Below are positions 13,603 through 63,719 of a stretch of 64,000 bases of DNA, piece by piece (positions within the stretch are counted from its first letter, which is position 1; every line of letters starts with the position of its first letter). The translations under genes were made by a program, and so were the position numbers. Under the pieces are notes generated by a model. The model saw only the letters and a program-made list of their open reading frames with translations, did not search any database and was not told the origin of the DNA. Source of the DNA: Firmicutes bacterium AF25-13AC (GTDB taxonomy: Bacteria > Bacillota > Clostridia > Lachnospirales > Lachnospiraceae). The stretch covers positions 43,439 to 107,438 of the forward strand of contig QUFP01000013.1 in the NCBI GenBank assembly GCA_003478935.1, read 5' to 3'.

Positions 13603-16600
13603 TTATTTGTCAATATCAAACTGATAGCTTCCGCTTACAAGCTCAAACTGGCTCATTCCAGAAGCAGAAGGAAGTGTCAAAAGGGCGGTTGTGTTGGCTG
13701 GAATGGTGCAGCGATAGCAAATGGAATTTTCTGTTTTCTCCCAGCTAGAAGCAACCTTTCCAAACGGTGTCTCTTGTTCACCTTTTGCAAAGCTCAGAGC
13801 GCCACCCCAGGAAGGTGTCAAGAAAATTCGATGATAGCCAGCCTCGTCTTTTTCTTCTCCTGTCTGAATACCGAGAACGGTGCGGTAGAGCCACTGTCCA
13901 ATTGAACCATATGCATAGTGGTTGAACGAATTCATTGAAACGTCACCGAATGTGCCTGTTTCTGCAATGTAAGAGTTCCAACGCTCCCAGATAGTAGTTG
14001 CACCATTTATAACGCTGTAAAGCCATCCTGGATTACCTTTTTGCTCTAAGAGCGCAAAAGCAAGCTCATTCTGTCCACATTTTGTCAGTGCAGGAAGCAG
14101 GTGACTGATTCCAAGGAAACCAACAGAAAGATGATTGTCTCTTCTATGGATCGACTCGACAAAATAATGGGTTGTCTGCGCCATTGTTTCTTCAGGCATG
14201 AGATTAAAATCAATCGCAAGTGCATAGGCTGTTTGGCTTGGATGATGGGTGCTGTATGTATTCTCACAATAGCGTGTCTGATTGATAATAGTACCATCTG
14301 CCTGCGGTGTGCCCTTGCTCATCTCACCCCAGTAAGCTAAAGAACCGTCTGGCTGAACCCAAGCCTCACGAAAGGCAGTGCGAATATCCTCGAACCGTTT
14401 TTGATAAAGGGCGGCATCATCTGTTTTTCCTAAAATTCGTGCAATGCGAGCCATCAGGTCAGCAACATAAGCGGCATAAGCAGTTGCTGTCAGGATAAAT
14501 GGAGTAGATTCATCAAATGTCAGATGATCGCCTCGGCTTTGCTGAACCTGAATAAAAGGTTTAGAAGAAAGATCGGACTGATCATGTCTTTGTACACCAT
14601 CGACAGTGCGAAGACCGCAGTTTTGGCGTGAATCAAGACTTTGGTAAGCAATCCAACGCGCCATGCACTCATAATTTTCTTCAAGAACACGAGTATCGCC
14701 GTAGGCCAGATACATTTCCCAAGGAACAATTACAGAAGCATCTGCCAACCGGCACATCCGGCAGGACGGTTATCGCCGCCAAGAGGTGCCGTATCCGGGA
14801 CAGCTCCCTGACGATTATACATTAGCTGACCGTCGCGCACATCAAGAAGCCATTTATTCATAAATGACTGAACATCCATGTTAAAGGCAGCAGTCGGTGC
14901 GAAGACCTGTGCATCACCAGTCCAGCCCATACGCTCATTTCGCTGTGGGCAATCGGTGTACACAAGAAGAGAATTGCCGCGCTGTCCCCATTGAATGTTA
15001 CTCTGAAGCTGATTGACTAACGGATCGGAACACTCAAAGCTTCCAGTTGTGTTTGGTGTGTTGCAAAGAACAAGACCTTCTAAACTTGTTACACAGCTGA
15101 TATCGGAAAGCTCACAGCCATTTCCTGTGATTTCCACATAGCGAAAACCATGTGATGTAAAGGAAGGAACAAAAGTTTCTCCGTTTTCATCACCGCTAAA
15201 GGTATAGGTGTCAGTATTGGCAGCGGAGCGGATATTCTTGATGTAGATTTCGCCGTTTGCATAGCTCATTTCTCCGTAGCGAAGTTTAATTGAAAGACCA
15301 CGTTCACCCTTTAAGTGAAGGCGAACTGTTCCGACCATGTTCTGACCAAGATCGTAAACAAAATGACCAGTCGGAATTTCATGCATAGAGATAGGAGTCA
15401 GCACACGCTCAATCACAGCGGACGGGCCTTCTTGTGCTGTAAGTTCAAATTTTACAGGATTAGTAAATGTTCCATTTGTAGGAACTGGCTTGCTTGGCCA
15501 TGGAAGAACGCCACATGCTTTCCAACGTTTGTCACTATTATCAATATGAGACAAATCCTTTGGAAGCAGGCGCGCATCATAATTTTCACCATCAAGATAG
15601 TCAGAGTCAACTACAGCGCCCTTATCAGTAAAAAGCCATGAATTATCGGTCACAAGTTCATCCTTGCTTCCATCGGTGTAGGTAACGATCATGCGTCCCA
15701 TAAAAGAGTTTTGCTCGCCATATTTCATAGGACCGCTGTAACCGCAGTAACCATTGTAATAACCCTTGCCAACGGTAGCCAAAAGCTGATTTTCGCCCTC
15801 ATGCAGCAGATTTGTCACATCATATGTCTGATAGAAAATGCGAAGGCGATAATCAGTAAAGCCTGGTGCGAAAAAGCTGCCATCGGCGTCAATGCCATTT
15901 ACTTTTACACGGTAGGAACCGCGTGCTGTTGCATATAGACGGGCAGAGGCAATCTTTTTGGATGGGTTTGCATGGAAAGTACCAAGCAGATTTATAGCTG
16001 GAACAGGGCAAGCCAGTTCAAACTGATTTTTTACAGTCAAGATGCCATCATTACAGGAACCAAGAACAGAGAAAATACCAGATTCATCTGAGAAGCTTTC
16101 ATTCTGGAAAACAGTGTTGGTTTTCGGGTCAGAAATAACAAGATTGTCATAGTAAGCAGTACTGCCTAACTGCTTAAAGCCTATAGAGAACAGACATCCA
16201 CGGCGCGGAACAAAAAATCCGGCATTTGGCATCAGGTCAGCTTCTTTTTGAATTATGGTCACATTATTGATAGAAACAGAAAGCTCTCGGTTATTTACTG
16301 TAATAGAGATTTTATTCCAATCATGCTCTAAGCCCTCAGAAACTGCATCCTTACTAATTATGTAGCCAACTTTGCTGCCAAGAATAGTCACAGTTGGAAT
16401 ATGGCCTTCTTTGGTGCTGCCATCCCAAGCGTTATCGCAATATTCGTAAATCATAAGTGTGCGGTTATCCATGTCCACATCAAATAATACGTAGTTATCC
16501 TTATTTCGGGCAGAGAGTACAATTCCAGCTTTATTACCGATGTCAGTTTTAAAATCAACGTTCATCTGATAGGAGTACAGGCAGGCGGTATTAGTTGTTT

Positions 16601-16982
16601 GCTTCGGTGAGCCAATCCACTGTGCATTGTTCCACACGGAAGCGTCCTTTCCCATAAGCCCAGTCTCAAACCATGTAACTTCGCTTTCATGCATCATATT
16701 TTCTTCATCCCACACGAAGACTTTCCAATAGTAGCGTGTGGAAGGCTCAAGTTTGGTGCAGTCAGCCGTTAACGCGGTGTGCTGTATATAACTCTTTACA
16801 ATATTACTGTCCCAGATAATGGGAGTCATAGTCTTATCTTTAGAAACGATGATGCGATAAGCGCTCTGCTTAGCACCTGTTCGTGAAGCAGCCATTTGCC
16901 AGGAAAACATAGGTGTTTCGCAGTCAACGCCAAGCGGTGTAATTTGTGCCTGTGTGCGGCATTTTACAATAGAAGTGCTCAT
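13603..16982 (-). pseudogene. GH78 alpha-L-rhamnosidase gene, single frameshift
   Basis: Two overlapping minus-strand frames (16982-14730 and 14757-13603) encode one protein of about 1126 residues. In order: an N-terminal Ig-like domain, an inserted concanavalin-like domain (about 150-330), a rhamnosidase N-type beta domain with GKGYYNGYCGY, and an (alpha/alpha)6 catalytic domain with the GH78 acid motif CPQRNERMGWTGD. The break follows GGDNRPAGCAGW. Adding one C in the CC at 14745-14746 restores ADASVIVPWEMYLAYG. There is no signal peptide, so it would release terminal L-rhamnose from imported glycosides in the cytoplasm. The single missing homopolymer base suggests the gene may really be intact. 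Confidence 0.88.
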
Positions 16983-17092: not shown

Positions 17093-17287
17093 TATAGTTC
17101 ACGAATAGGCTGATATTTACGGCATAGCCCTAAGGTGAATGGATTTCACGAGCCGGACACTTGAAGCAGGTCTTTCAAAGTAATGTATAATAAAAATGAA
17201 CATAAAAGGAGCCTGCGGAGTTTGGTCCGGCGACGAAACCATTGCACCGAAGGGCACTCGTTGTAACATCAGGGTCGAAATCGTGAC
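17093..17287 (+). repeat. Structured intergenic element, family A copy 1 (degraded ends)
   Basis: This copy matches the reverse complement of 60557-60747 over most of its length. Nested stems: GCCGGAC (17152-17158) with GTCCGGC (17225-17231), and GCAGG (17166-17170) with CCTGC (17212-17216). Outside these, GGATTTC pairs with GAAACC around an ACGAG/CGAC internal loop. The apical part holds CTTTCAAA and TATAATA. TTGAAG (17161) and TATAAT (17186-17191), 19 apart, look like a promoter aimed at the C69 peptidase gene. The terminal repeats are eroded (TATAGTTCACG on the left). With the rhamnosidase start region it fills the 342-base gap 16983-17324. Confidence 0.8.
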
Positions 17288-44042: not shown

Positions 44043-44099
44043 GCGTTATTTTAAAAGTTCAACATATTGAACTTAGGGGCGAAACCCGAAAGTCTTACG

Positions 44100-44230
44100 A
44101 AAGGCGGATTCGACGAGGTCTTTGTCGGCGTCTCTTTTCCGCGGGTACCTGTTACACTATCTATTATCATATATTGTTTTGAAAGTCCCGCTACAACGTT
44201 CCGCCTCGTAAAGAACCATCGTCTCACCGC
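44100..44230 (-). repeat. Structured intergenic element, family B copy 1
   Basis: Shared with 62343-62500. Nested stems (plus coordinates): GACGAGGTCTTT (44112-44123) with AAAGAACCATCGTC (44210-44223), GGCG (44127-44130) with CGCC (44202-44205), and GCGGG (44141-44145) with CCCGC (44187-44191). On the minus strand the apical part reads CTTTCAAAAC then TATGATAATA. TTGTAG and TATGAT, 19 apart, would point at the alanine symporter gene. It occupies the middle of the 411-base gap 43972-44382. Confidence 0.75.
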
Positions 44231-44305
44231 CAGCTAGGTAACGATGATGAGTCCCAAAGTAGAACTGTATAATCAAAATAATAAGTATTTTTTCCTAAAT
44301 ATTTA

Positions 44306-45099: not shown

Positions 45100-45107
45100 G
45101 ATTTTTA

Positions 45108-45180
45108 GTTACAGTTCATGGATAAGCCAATATTGCGGCAAAGCCCGAAGGTGAATGGCTTTCGTAGCATGAACTGTAAC
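45108..45180. mobile_element. Short family A element (73 bp) with 8-bp target duplication
   Basis: Terminal inverted repeats GTTACAGTTCATG and CATGAACTGTAAC bound a 73-bp element. It is flanked on both sides by GATTTTTA (45100-45107 and 45181-45188), a perfect 8-bp direct repeat. Its left 57 bases match the left arm of the 191-bp copy at 60557 (reverse complement), so it looks like an internally deleted derivative. It codes for nothing: a MITE-like non-autonomous element. Confidence 0.8.
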
Positions 45181-45287
45181 GATTTTTATAGAATACTAGA
45201 AATGAATGCTTTACATTACTTAGGAAAATTGGTATCCTTAATAATACACGCAAAAAATATTTTGAAGAAAGGGAAGAAAAAGATACT

Positions 45288-49805: not shown

Positions 49806-49893
49806 TTGACAGAAAAAAATAACATGGTATGATAGAACTCAAGCAGTTAAGCTGTTATGAGGGTTTGCAAGTATCCGCATCTAGCATGATGCG
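49806..49893 (+). promoter_or_regulatory. Promoter and repeat-like leader of the peptide importer operon
   Basis: TTGACA (49806-49811) and TATGAT (49828-49833), 16 bases apart. The leader then holds a diverged family A end: GTTAAGCTGTTATG near 49846 and GCGTGAACTGTAAC at 49880-49893. The rest of the 328-base gap 49650-49977 shows no other structure to me. Confidence 0.55.
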
Positions 49894-49977
49894 TGAACTG
49901 TAACTGCAAAATAAAGTTTCCCTGTTGATGGGCGAGAAAAAAGTCTGTTTCGGGGAATGGAAGGGCATGGTACGATT

Positions 49978-57934: not shown

Positions 57935-58809
57935 ATGGAAGATAAAATAAAAAACAAGAATGGAAAGTTAGAAAAGACAAATAAGAAAGAAAAGATGGAG
58001 AAGTTGCATAAAAAGGACAAAAAAGTTTCTGCATTAAGATTGTATTGCCATTATATTAGCATTCATGTGCGAAGTACTATGCAGTATAAGACATCCTTTT
58101 TCCTGACAACACTTGGACAATTTTTATTTTCTTTTAATGTATTTGTGGGAATTACATTTATGTTTCAGCGTTTTCATGAAGTTAAAGGTTTTACATACAG
58201 CGAAGTTTTGATTTGTTATGCGCTTGTGCTAGTCGAATTTTCTCTGGCAGAAATGTTTGCCAGAGGCTTTGACAGTTTTTCAGGCATGGTGCGCCATGCC
58301 GAATTTGACCGTGTGCTAGTACGGCCGAGAAACGAAGTCCTCAGGTTCTTGGAAGCAAATTTGAGTTGTCAAGATGCGGACGCGCCTTTCAGGCGGTGAT
58401 TTTGTTTATATATGGTGTCATGACTGTACAGATAGATTGGAATCTGACGCGTGTGTTAACAGTTATTTTTATGTTGATCGGAGGAGCCGCTGTATTTTCA
58501 GGATTGTTTATGGTGTATGCAGCGCTTTGCTTTTTTACACTTGATGGTCTTGAGTTCATGAACATACTAACAGACGGAGCAAGAGAGTACGGCAAATATC
58601 CAATTGGTATTTATGGAAAGCGTATGCTTTTATTTTGTACACTCATTGTTCCGTATGCGCTGATTCAATATTATCCGCTCTTATATTTGCTGGGAAGAAC
58701 CACTTCTCTCTTGAACATGGTGATGCCACTATTTGCTGTTCTTTTTTTGATCCCGTGTTATGTGTTGTGGCGCGTTGGCGTGCGCCACTACAAGTCTAGC
58801 GGATCGTAA
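57935..58809 (+). pseudogene. ABC-2 type permease, subunit 2, single frameshift
   Basis: Frames 57935-58399 and 58366-58809 belong to one gene of about 290 residues. The basic N-terminus (KKDKKVSALRLYCHYISIHVRSTMQYK) leads into membrane segments and the loop FDSFSGMVRHAEFDRVLVRPRNEVL. Adding one T at 58341 turns LRFLEANL into LQVLGSKFELSRCGRAFQAVI, the known continuation in this family. The C-terminus has four more membrane segments. It is the second half of the ABC-2 channel. Confidence 0.87.
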
Positions 58810-60418: not shown

Positions 60419-60453
60419 GTTACTGTTCACAGGGCTTTGCCGTGAACTGTAAC
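60419..60453. repeat. Minimal hairpin related to family A ends
   Basis: GTTACTGTTCAC (60419-60430) pairs with GTGAACTGTAAC (60442-60453) except for one T/T mismatch, leaving an 11-base loop AGGGCTTTGCC. The arms equal the terminal repeats of the larger element next to it. No exact target duplication is seen. It lies 22 bases upstream of the minus-strand hypothetical gene. Confidence 0.7.
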
Positions 60454-60556
60454 ATTAAATGAACCTGTTATTTTTGTATTATCATATCATATATTGACAA
60501 AACGGGCAACAACTAGTAGACTTAATTGGAAACGTTGGAAAATAATAGAAGTAAAG

Positions 60557-60747
60557 GTTACTGTTCATGCGTAATGTAACGAAAGCCCTTCGGTGCAATG
60601 GTTTCGTCGACGGACCAAACTCAGCAGGTTCCTTCTATGTTCTTTCTTATTATACATTATTTTGAAAGACCTGCTTCAAGTGTCCGTCTCGTGAAATCCA
60701 TTCACCTTCGGGCTTGCCGCAATATTGGCTTATCCATGAACAGTAAC
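60557..60747 (-). mobile_element. Full family A structured element (191 bp) with 8-bp target duplication
   Basis: Terminal repeats GTTACTGTTCATG / CATGAACAGTAAC bound 191 bp, flanked by perfect AAGTAAAG on both sides (60549-60556, 60748-60755). Read on the minus strand it folds as one long hairpin: AAGCCC/GGGCTT, a symmetric GAA/GAA internal loop, GGTG/CACC, AATGG/CCATT, GACGGAC/GTCCGTC, then GCAGGT/ACCTGC. The apical region contains CTTTCAAAAT and TATAATA. No open reading frame. It fills most of the 377-base gap 60398-60774. Confidence 0.85.
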
Positions 60748-60774
60748 AAGTAAAGAGGAAGAGAGGAAAACACT

Positions 60775-61293
60775 ATGCAGGCAAAACAGGAAAAATGGGA
60801 CTTATATGATCAGCAGGGCAGAAAAACAGGAAAGACCATTCAGGCAGGCGAGAATGTTCCGCAAGGATATTGTCTGTACTGTGTTGGTATCTGGGTAATT
60901 GACAGCGAGAAGAAGATTTTGCTCACAAAGCGAAGCAGTCAGAAACGTTATGCACCTGGTAAGTGGGAGAACACAGGTGGTCATATGATTTCAGGAGAGA
61001 CAAGCAGACATGCCATTGTGCGTGAGCTTAAGGAAGAAACAGGCATTCAGATTGAAGAAAATGAGCTGATTGAGCTTGGAGATAATCATATTGGTCAGTT
61101 CCTTGGCGATAATTATGCCGTTTTTAAAGATGTGGCACTTGATGAGGTTCATCTTGAAGAAGGAGAGACAGAGGATGTTATTAAGGTAACACTTCCACAG
61201 CTTGAGGAAATGGCAGAGAAGAAGATGCTTAGTCCTGCAGTGTGGGATCACATGGCTGGATATAAGGATGAGTTTTATCGTTTGTTCGATTAA
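60775..61293 (+). CDS. NUDIX hydrolase
   Basis: 172 residues. The Nudix box is complete: GGHMISGETSRHAIVRELKEETGI (Gx5Ex7REUxEExGU) near residues 68-92. The preceding WVIDSEKKILLTKRSSQKRYAPGKWENTGG is the usual N-terminal half. The start LYDQQGRKTGKTIQAGE resembles isopentenyl-diphosphate-isomerase-like Nudix proteins (YfcD type). Substrate is some nucleoside- or prenyl-diphosphate. GAGGAAGAGAGGA precedes the ATG. Confidence 0.92.
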   Translation: MQAKQEKWDLYDQQGRKTGKTIQAGENVPQGYCLYCVGIWVIDSEKKILLTKRSSQKRYAPGKWENTGGHMISGETSRHAIVRELKEETGIQIEENELIELGDNHIGQFLGDNYAVFKDVALDEVHLEEGETEDVIKVTLPQLEEMAEKKMLSPAVWDHMAGYKDEFYRLFD

Positions 61294-61371: not shown

Positions 61372-62343
61372 ATGAGTCAGCTGTTAATAAAGTCACAGGA
61401 CATTCGCTATACAAAGCTTACATTTACAATCGAATTTACAGAGGATACCATGCTGCCGAAACAGAAAGTTTCCGCTATACGTGGCGGAATTGGTGAAATG
61501 CTGCTGCGTGCTAATTGCGTGCGAGGGCGCGAATGTGAAAAATGTGATTTTGCAGATGAATGTATCGTGCAGCGCATCATGTATTCTAAATATGAAAAGA
61601 AGCCATCTTTTGTGACAACAGGCGAGAGCGTAGGCTATGTGCTTGAATGTGATAATTATAAGGAAGAGTTTTATCAGGGAGATCAGTTAAGCTTTCAGCT
61701 AATTCTCTTCGGAAAAAATATTGTTTACTTTAATCAATATCTTCAGGCAATCAGCATGCTCGGAGCATCAGGTCTTGGCAAGCATCAGGCACATTTTATT
61801 ATTGTTTCTGTTAAAAATCAGTATTGGCAGGATATTCTTGTAAATAACAGCATTCAAATGGGAAATTATCAAATTTCCACGCTGGGAGAATATATTGATT
61901 ACCGAATGAGACAGCTGCAAAAAGTACAACAGGGAAGTTTGTCTAAGGTAAGTGACGCTTGCTATTCAGGGATGTTGACGTTTCATACACCATTTACGGT
62001 AAAATATCAGGGAGAATTTATTCGTGATCTTCAAATGGATCCAATCATCGCGTCCATTCGCCGCCGCCTTTACATGCTGGACTGCTTTGAAGGCATCGAA
62101 GCAGAAATATTTTGGGAAGAAACGCCAGAGACAGCTGTTACTACGCGTCAGCAGTCAAGATTAGAAGGAGTCAATCGCTATTCAAATAGAAAAGACAGCG
62201 CAATGACACTTCGTGGAATCAAAGGAAAAGTTTGGTTTAATGATGCAAATGAAGATACAATGAAACTGCTGTTTGCAGGAGAATTGCTTCATATTGGAAA
62301 AAACAGCAGCTTTGGATTTGGGGAGTATCAGGTGATGTGGTAA
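61372..62343 (+). CDS. cas6: CRISPR-associated endoribonuclease Cas6
   Basis: 323 residues, RAMP superfamily. The N-terminal part has a likely zinc site of four cysteines (C49, C55, C58, C64) in NCVRGRECEKCDFADEC, as seen in the PF10040-type Cas6 proteins. LQAISMLGASGLGKHQAHF is a conserved block in the middle. The C-terminus GELLHIGKNSSFGFGEYQV is the glycine-rich RAMP loop. It would cut the CRISPR transcript at the base of the repeat hairpin. No other cas gene is in the window; a CRISPR array starts 1.56 kb downstream beyond rsgA. AGAGGTG precedes the ATG. Confidence 0.88.
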   Translation: MSQLLIKSQDIRYTKLTFTIEFTEDTMLPKQKVSAIRGGIGEMLLRANCVRGRECEKCDFADECIVQRIMYSKYEKKPSFVTTGESVGYVLECDNYKEEFYQGDQLSFQLILFGKNIVYFNQYLQAISMLGASGLGKHQAHFIIVSVKNQYWQDILVNNSIQMGNYQISTLGEYIDYRMRQLQKVQQGSLSKVSDACYSGMLTFHTPFTVKYQGEFIRDLQMDPIIASIRRRLYMLDCFEGIEAEIFWEETPETAVTTRQQSRLEGVNRYSNRKDSAMTLRGIKGKVWFNDANEDTMKLLFAGELLHIGKNSSFGFGEYQVMW

Positions 62344-62344
62344 T

Positions 62345-62500
62345 GAATTTTCCACCTGAAGTTTCACGAAGGTGGCTTCGGCGAAGTGTTTGTCGGCGTC
62401 ACTTTTCCGCGGGTACCTGTTACACGCCTTATTATCATATGTTCTTTGAAAGTCCCGCTACAACGTTCCGCCTCGTAAATCACATTCGCCTCAGTCACCA
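62345..62500 (-). repeat. Structured intergenic element, family B copy 2
   Basis: Same architecture as 44100-44230: GGCGAAGTGTTT (62380-62391) with AAATCACATTCGCC (62477-62490), GGCG (62395-62398) with CGCC (62469-62472), GCGGG (62409-62413) with CCCGC (62454-62458). An added hairpin CCACC/GGTGG lies at 62352-62375. On the minus strand the core has CTTTCAAAG then TATGATAATA. It begins right after the cas6 stop codon, and its promoter-like core points back into cas6. Confidence 0.75.
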
Positions 62501-62535
62501 TTTACGTAGTGAAGGGGGCACCACAAGAGTTCTGC

Positions 62536-62684: not shown

Positions 62685-63719
62685 TTGAAAGAAAGAAAAG
62701 AAGAATATCATCAGACAGAAGAAGGCAGAAATAAGCTGGAAGTATTTGATGAACAGTGCCTGCACACAGAGCGAACAGGACGTATCAGTGAAGTGCAGAA
62801 AAATAGTTACCTAATTCGATATTTGGAAAAGGAGATTCCGGCAAAATTAAGTGGAAAATTTTATCGGGAAGAAACTGTGTTTCCAGTAGTTGGAGATTAT
62901 GTGACTTTTCGTTACAATCCAAAAGGCGATTCAAAAATTATAGAGATTTGCGAACGAAAAAATTTCCTGACGCGTCCAGATACGGCAAAAAGTATGAAAG
63001 AACAGCCAATGGCAGCAAATATTGACTATGCCTTTCTTGTCATGTCATTGAATGACAATTTCAGTGTCAATCGTGCAGTGCGCTATGCGGCAACTGTTTT
63101 GCAGGAAGGCGTACAGCCGATAGTAATTTTAACTAAAGTGGATTTATGTCCAGATGTGGAAAAACTGAAAGAACAGCTTAAAGAAATGCTTCCGCAGATA
63201 GAAGTTCATGCGGTCAGTGCTTTGACAGGTGATGGGATGGATAAATTACAGGTGTATCTGCAGCCAGGAAACACAATTGCACTTCTAGGATCTTCAGGTG
63301 TGGGAAAATCAACACTTGTCAATGCGTTAGCAGGAACAGAGATTATGAAAACAGGTGAGATTCGTGAAAAAGATGCGAAAGGACGCCATACAACAACATA
63401 TCGAGAAATGATTGAACTATCGAATAATGTTGTAATAATAGATACACCGGGAATGCGGGAGATCGGACTTTGTGATGTAGACGAAGGAATTGATGATACC
63501 TTCGAAGATATTGCAGAGTTGGCTGCGCAGTGTAGGTTCCGTGACTGCACGCATACAAATGAACCGCGCTGCGCAGTAAGGCAGGCATTGGAGAATGGCC
63601 AATTATCAAAAGAGCGTTTTGAACTGTATCGTTCACTTCATGTCGAAAGCAGAAAAAGTGCAGATATGAAGGCAATAGCAAAGGCAAGGAAAGCGTTGAA
63701 TAAGACAAGAAAAAGATGA
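62685..63719 (+). CDS. rsgA: Ribosome small-subunit-dependent GTPase RsgA
   Basis: 344 residues from a TTG at 62685 with AGGGGAGA upstream. An N-terminal OB fold (GRISEVQKNSYLIRY) precedes a circularly permuted GTPase: NIDYAFLVMSLNDNFS, G4 ILTKVDL, G1 LLGSSGVGKSTLVNAL, G2 GRHTTT and G3 DTPGMREIG. The C-terminal zinc site is in CRFRDCTHTNEPRCAVRQAL. It helps mature the 30S ribosomal subunit. Its place between cas6 and the array seems accidental or due to an insertion. The N-terminal 25 residues are an unusual charged extension. Confidence 0.95.
   Translation: MKERKEEYHQTEEGRNKLEVFDEQCLHTERTGRISEVQKNSYLIRYLEKEIPAKLSGKFYREETVFPVVGDYVTFRYNPKGDSKIIEICERKNFLTRPDTAKSMKEQPMAANIDYAFLVMSLNDNFSVNRAVRYAATVLQEGVQPIVILTKVDLCPDVEKLKEQLKEMLPQIEVHAVSALTGDGMDKLQVYLQPGNTIALLGSSGVGKSTLVNALAGTEIMKTGEIREKDAKGRHTTTYREMIELSNNVVIIDTPGMREIGLCDVDEGIDDTFEDIAELAAQCRFRDCTHTNEPRCAVRQALENGQLSKERFELYRSLHVESRKSADMKAIAKARKALNKTRKR

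Follow-up and report, generated by a model that had tools for sequence, protein, structure and literature searches.

A new MITE family in a Lachnospiraceae genome whose core is conserved in its fold

The 191-bp element at 60557-60747 of a 64,000-nucleotide stretch of Firmicutes bacterium AF25-13AC (contig QUFP01000013.1; the whole stretch is called the window below) represents a new MITE family, family A, with a core that is conserved in its fold. Direct reading of the sequence showed that the coordinates and the length of 191 nt given in a preliminary description were exact, and that the terminal repeats are perfect over 13 nt. The element is flanked by an 8-bp duplication, AAGTAAAG, which that description did not mention. 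We scanned the whole window for GTTRCNGT ends spaced 20-400 bp apart and bordered by an 8-bp duplication, with base-shuffled windows as a control. Exactly two elements were found, at 60557-60747 and 45108-45180, and 50 shuffled windows contained none. No part of the 191-bp element lies in an ORF of at least 60 aa. Family A, which comprises two A copies and one shell form in the window (Table 1), has the properties that define a MITE: terminal inverted repeats, a target duplication of fixed length, a short size, no transposase gene and several copies. No known MITE turned up in a comparison with Rfam and the literature, and a search of the literature on MITEs, small mobile repeats, structured RNAs and these end sequences retrieved, within its limits, no description of the element.

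Bacterial MITEs usually resemble gutted transposons. Family A is like those known, e.g. MITEAba12 (in the part of PMC6382973 available to us), in being short and non-coding, with terminal inverted repeats, a fixed-length duplication and several copies. What sets it apart is an interior that forms a nested hairpin, conserved in its fold and with stems that covary; no partner insertion sequence was found for it. Its cargo is a fold that evolution has kept while the letters change, and this fold was unmatched in the RNA catalogue searched.

The inner 137 nt of the second A copy (17093-17287) are 92% complementary to the 60557 copy; no target duplication was found around it. The preliminary description had also listed a copy at 45 kb with a swapped terminal pair, GTTACAG...CTGTAAC instead of the GTTACTG...CAGTAAC of the 60557 copy. 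Both the ends and the swap are present at 45108-45180, but this 73-bp form is an outer shell without the core and not a full copy. By eye, it appears to have lost the sequence between two direct repeats, GAAAGCC and GAAATCC, through a deletion. Two diverged relatives of the core, B1 and B2, were seen by blast and by a profile scan of the window, and no clear target duplication was found for either. A lone half-site, TGAACTGTAAC, at 49892-49904 adjoins a small palindrome and may be the decayed remains of an element with these ends. Outside the window, matches to the 191-bp element were found in four scaffolds from human faeces that are catalogued as 'Bacteriophage sp.' (L001-L004); in two of them the match covers at least 80% of the query. 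None of these copies has an intact end pair, and the one in L003 is cut by the contig end.

Table 1. Family A, its parts and its relatives in the window
Feature	Position	Strand	Remarks
Family A element	60557..60747	+	191 bp; terminal inverted repeats GTTACTGTTCATG/CATGAACAGTAAC; direct reading, scan for ends and duplication, fold z score
Left 8-bp target duplication, AAGTAAAG	60549..60556	.	identical to right flank
Right 8-bp target duplication, AAGTAAAG	60748..60755	.	identical to left flank
Fold-conserved core	60577..60717	+	nested helices, conserved internal loops, apical loop of about 40 nt; model R1, covariation counts
Internal loop 1, 5' side on + strand, TTC (minus strand: GAA)	60589..60591, partner 60707-60709	-	minus-strand readings of the copies
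Internal loop 2, 5' side on + strand, GTC	60606..60608, partner TCGT 60689-60692	-	GA/GA on minus strand
Second family A copy	17093..17287	-	degraded ends
73-bp shell-only form (terminal repeats without core)	45108..45180	- relative to 60557 copy	scan for ends and duplication
8-bp target duplication of the 73-bp form, GATTTTTA	45100..45107, right copy 45181-45188	.	exact
Relative B1 of the core	44095..44233	+	different outer arms; model R1, E 8.9e-16
Relative B2 of the core	62364..62501	+	different outer arms; model R1, E 3.5e-16
35-bp hairpin with the same terminal repeats	60419..60453	.	no target duplication seen; position 6 not complementary

We compared the fold energies of the copies with those of dinucleotide shuffles. 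The z scores on the two strands were -8.0 and -9.0 for the 60557 copy and -6.5 and -6.2 for the 17093 copy, with 0 of 200 shuffles as stable in each case. As single sequences, B1 and B2 folded no better than their shuffles (RNA z -0.8 and +0.2), and part of B1 folded as DNA gave a z of +0.9. Because both strands of the A copies beat the shuffles while B1 and B2 do not, the fold energies are not decisive between RNA and DNA. The helices of B1 and B2 can be re-paired by hand. The covariance model envisaged in the preliminary description (R1) was built from five A copies, with B1 and B2 kept outside. It recovered both of these diverged relatives in the window (E values in Table 1). R1 also gave matches on the reverse strand of the A copies (E 8.5e-7 to 8.3e-4), a result to be expected of a hairpin.

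The compensatory changes between copies that had been described earlier are real. The example then given, GACGGAC/GTCCGTC in the 60557 copy against GCCGGAC/GTCCGGC in the 17093 copy, is present on direct reading. Covariation was counted against two controls, shuffles and partners slid by 1-3 columns. In the five A copies, double changes were seen in 4 of the 34 pairs (mean of the shuffles 1.7, with 14 of 500 as high). With B1 and B2 added, this number rose to 17 of 34 (shuffled mean 6.5; 0 of 500 as high). How large the effect is remains uncertain, because the structure guided the fitting of the alignment used (A5) and because there are no more than seven core copies, which amount to two or three lineages. 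The same seven copies contained 28 double-changed cells (shuffled mean 7.6; 0 of 500 as high), and once the partners were slid the counts did not exceed 4 pairs and 5 cells. Further pair types, the fifth measure, amounted to 21 in the seven copies vs 17.3 in the shuffles (33 of 500 reached 21); the value for the five A copies alone was reached by 187 of 500 shuffles. Double changes include the transversions A-T to C-G and A-T to T-A. Between A and B, identity was 72% at unpaired positions and 54% at paired ones.

The internal loops were read on the minus strand. In loop 1, GAA, UAA or UGA stands opposite GAA in the six copies that have both sides; B1 carries extra letters there, and L003 has GAG on the sole side present. 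The GAA/GAA loop of the preliminary description is therefore found as such in the 60557 and L001 copies, the others having UAA/GAA or UGA/GAA, one with extra letters. Loop 2 has GA opposite GA in 7 of 7 copies. Both loops are in line with the tandem sheared G-A pairs that had been suggested.

Stems that are re-lettered yet paired point to selection on the folded shape. Such selection, on an RNA or a DNA hairpin, had been proposed before, and it is supported by the covariation of the seven copies and by loops that are more conserved than stems. We consider it likely that family A is a MITE moved in trans by a DDE-type transposase, and that its core is under selection as a folded hairpin, with some correction between the arms. 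Under this proposal, helices would change sequence and keep their pairing, and the internal and apical loops would keep their sequence, as seen on the seven copies. Selection on the folded hairpin, i.e. on single-stranded DNA or RNA recognised by a protein, would be the most likely reason. Template correction from arm to arm probably helps and would explain why the pairs are nearly all Watson-Crick.

Both an RNA and a DNA hairpin are possible. Conserved purine-rich internal loops lean towards RNA, or towards a protein that reads the folded strand. That the A/B core is a functional non-coding RNA, e.g. a regulatory or protein-binding one, spreading inside a mobile element seems to us somewhat doubtful. 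Such an RNA would account for the 72% vs 54% identity of loops and stems, for the invariant GA/GA of loop 2 on the minus strand and for the possibility of re-pairing the helices of B1 and B2 by hand, but the strand signal is not consistent and wobble pairs are scarce. Among the 215 paired cells of A/B we counted 4 G-T and no A-C, as compared with 9 G-U in 90 for four tRNAs from fetched loci, which are a small yardstick (Fisher p 0.003). This scarcity, and double changes for which a wobble step is not required, are easier to reconcile with a constraint on the pairing of DNA, or with correction between the arms, than with an ordinary RNA. A match to Rfam is also lacking: the comparison, which the preliminary description had left to be made, gave no known family. 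With Rfam 15, the whole window gave no match at the gathering threshold, and positions 60500-60800, searched at E up to 10, matched only three eukaryotic families, with E 1.6 or worse.

The covariation could also have arisen with no selection at all, if the palindrome folds during replication and one arm templates the repair of the other, so that both arms change in one event. This would readily produce double changes that include transversions, pairs that are almost exclusively Watson-Crick, and a position 6 of the terminal repeats that takes all four pairs (see below). It leaves unexplained the higher conservation of unpaired than of paired positions from A to B, as well as the conserved internal loops, and we regard it as unlikely. 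Family A is a clean system for asking whether a mobile hairpin is kept by RNA function, by DNA movement or by template correction alone.

The ends of family A belong to a wider system than the window element. Hairpins of the form GTTACNGTTCA...TGAACNGTAAC, with 3-32 nt between the arms, were found at 37 places in 12 of 200 Lachnospiraceae genomes, while the reversed pattern, used as a control, occurred in 3 genomes, at one place each. We inspected 17 of these hairpin loci: 3 had an exact 8-bp duplication, 3 more had a 7-of-8 match, and 11 had neither. One genome, G117, contained 215 half-sites vs 0 for the control. In 1.56 Mb of this genome, exact 8-bp flanking repeats bordered 28 of 163 candidate end pairs (chance expectation 0.0025), and any other repeat length from 4 to 15 gave at most 1 case. 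When the ends were slightly relaxed and a single mismatch was tolerated in the duplication, we counted 47 elements: 22 were 26 bp long, 7 measured 51-54 bp, 7 had 132 bp, one had 244 bp and 10 were of other sizes.

Position 6 of the terminal repeats is T, A, G or C. At this position the two arms were complementary in 33 of the 39 hairpins compared (three from the window and the remaining 36 from the 37 places in Lachnospiraceae genomes), the expectation being 27.0 on shuffling within genomes (p 0.002) and 15.4 on shuffling overall; this is suggestive and not a strict test, because copies within a genome are related.

The 26-bp elements of G117 (L090-L169) have the sequence GTTACTGTTCACACGTTCACAGYAAC and variants of it, and some are identical to the left end of the 132-bp element. 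They may be deletion products or ultra-short mobile units. Under our proposal, short forms would mostly be internal deletions between direct repeats brought together by the hairpin. It is also conceivable that the hairpin is itself the substrate of transposition, with a transposase acting on the folded single strand and thereby letting units of 26 bp move. Of the 47 duplication-flanked elements of G117, 22 are exactly 26 bp long, and a duplex of that length would be too short to form a loop with both of its ends bound. On the other hand, a deletion in the 132-bp element, between its direct repeats ACAGCAAC and ACAGTAAC, can also yield the 26-bp form, and the enzyme is putative; we find a hairpin substrate quite unlikely. 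The very small mobile repeats described from cyanobacteria (Elhai et al. 2008) are reportedly also very short units that appear mobile. Those repeats have other sequences and other hosts, and the 26-bp unit described here is bordered by 8-bp duplications and could have been produced by a deletion.

An 8-bp duplication combined with short inverted repeats is the mark of a DDE enzyme. A putative DDE-type transposase, supplied in trans, would recognise the GTTACNGTTCA ends and make a cut with an 8-bp stagger; mobility is indicated by the duplications. REPINs and REP sequences, by comparison, are not known to have a target duplication. Family A resembles these elements in being a mobile palindromic hairpin located outside genes and in showing compensatory changes between arms, which have been reported for REPINs (PMC3116915; see also PMC3733652, both as far as their available parts go). 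It nevertheless seems extremely improbable that family A is REPIN-like and owes its movement to a tyrosine (RAYT/TnpA) transposase: its 8-bp target duplications point to a DDE enzyme, and its GTTAC...GTAAC ends carry no GTAG or CGTC tag.

We searched for the partner transposase among several candidates, none of which could be linked to GTTAC ends at the loci checked. IS66, the first of them, was chosen for its 8-bp duplications and GTAA ends. It was present in 6 of 12 hairpin-bearing genomes, and at 18 loci the gene was never enclosed by GTTAC ends with a duplication. IS256 (3 of 6 genomes, 4 loci) had no GTTAC ends, its own ends not being located; for IS66 and IS256 this test of the ends is weak because the true ends of most copies were not located. 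PF13610 proteins (6 of 11 genomes, 6 loci) also lacked GTTAC ends. An IS6-like protein, whole or in pieces, gave matches in 22 of 230 genomes. The ends that could be read (14 of 30 loci) were GGTAGTGT, GATAGTGT or GGTACTGT and not GTTAC, the likeness being only partial. Among these IS6-like insertion sequences, those of about 1.9 kb (L083:692-2590, L176:1343-3241, L179:1328-3210) have GGTAGTGTCAA-like ends, 8-bp duplications and a DDE protein of roughly 500 aa, which scores above the cut-off for PF13610 and below that of the NCBIfam IS6 model. No GTTAC-ended element of 600-8000 bp was seen within single stretches of the 1.56 Mb of G117 that were scanned.

A second structured core, family C, is found in G117. 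The 244-bp GTTAC element of this genome (L064:1501-1744; duplication TAATGATC) has a core that is different from that of family A and is interrupted by extra sequence. The family C core consists of CGCTCTCGCT...CGCAGCGGACRCTAAGCTCG...CCTCGCTAAGYGCCGGCG (e.g. L209:1515-1592, L121:5409-5488 and L207:1515-1594), and in G117 we read five copies that lack GTTAC ends. A DNA search, in which at most 3 candidates were scored per genome, found family C in 21 of 220 Lachnospiraceae genomes including G117, several of the matches being weak and near the limit. In 13 copies, 14 of 19 pairs were double-changed, with 49 double-changed cells vs 15.0 in the shuffles (0 of 500 as high); further pair types showed no excess (22 vs 23.6). 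G-U made up 2 of 231 paired cells, and the outer stems remain paired although they vary from copy to copy. In the loci tested, family C had no match in Rfam 15. The presence of this core in a GTTAC element indicates that a structured core inside such elements is not a one-off.

A homology between the A core and family C, suggested by eye from TGAAANACCT-GCT..AAGTG-CCG, was not borne out. The model R2 did not find A or B at E 10, and the scores of local alignments with family C were matched by 55, 9, 13 and 194 of 200 shuffles for A1, A2, B1 and B2, respectively.

One may speculate that Lachnospiraceae harbour self-spreading structured cores (A/B and C), carried in GTTAC elements or other hairpins, neither of them matched in Rfam, whose pairing is policed as DNA and whose folded single strand, rather than an RNA, is recognised by a DDE transposase. 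We hold this to be rather improbable; if true, such reading of a DNA-policed fold would let 26-bp units move with an 8-bp duplication.

Further copies of the core were looked for in several collections. Plasmid records had no match to the 191-bp element, no phage record matched B1 or B2 used as queries, and core patterns (three in IMG/VR) retrieved nothing from IMG/VR or from GTDB contigs. The 191-bp DNA query matched 0 of 6, 1 of 397 and 0 of 116 genomes, only few candidates per genome having been scored in the sets of 397 and 116; the sole match, in G372, was a chance match of 24 bp. A covariance-model search of the 397 Lachnospiraceae genomes with strict filters did not find the core, a result that is weak because there was no positive control among them.

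The two short scaffolds with the best A-like copies also contain Clostridiales-1 RNA (RF01699; L001:1258-1398 and L002:1172-1340), a structured family of Clostridiales and the human gut according to the part of PMC2864571 available to us. It is structured like family A and does not match the element at 60557.

The nearest proteins to those of the window in genome contigs were from Lachnospiraceae, with 55-57% identity, and the best identities for the protein at 62685-63719 were 59% in the 397-genome sample. The NUDIX protein beside the element shares 99% identity with a cluster of 670 sequences; across 40 matches with E up to 1e-30, identity fell from at least 84% to about 45%. These values indicate that the species is commonly sampled and that its relatives are distant or unsampled. 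A gene with a Cas6 domain (PF10040) occupies 61372-62343, a position that separates the A element from B2. The repeats of at least 30 nt in the window included no CRISPR array. Two other genes, for an alpha-L-rhamnosidase (13603-16982) and an ABC-2 permease (57935-58809), are each split over two overlapping frames. Their domain matches continue across the frames, which suggests frameshifts or sequencing errors.
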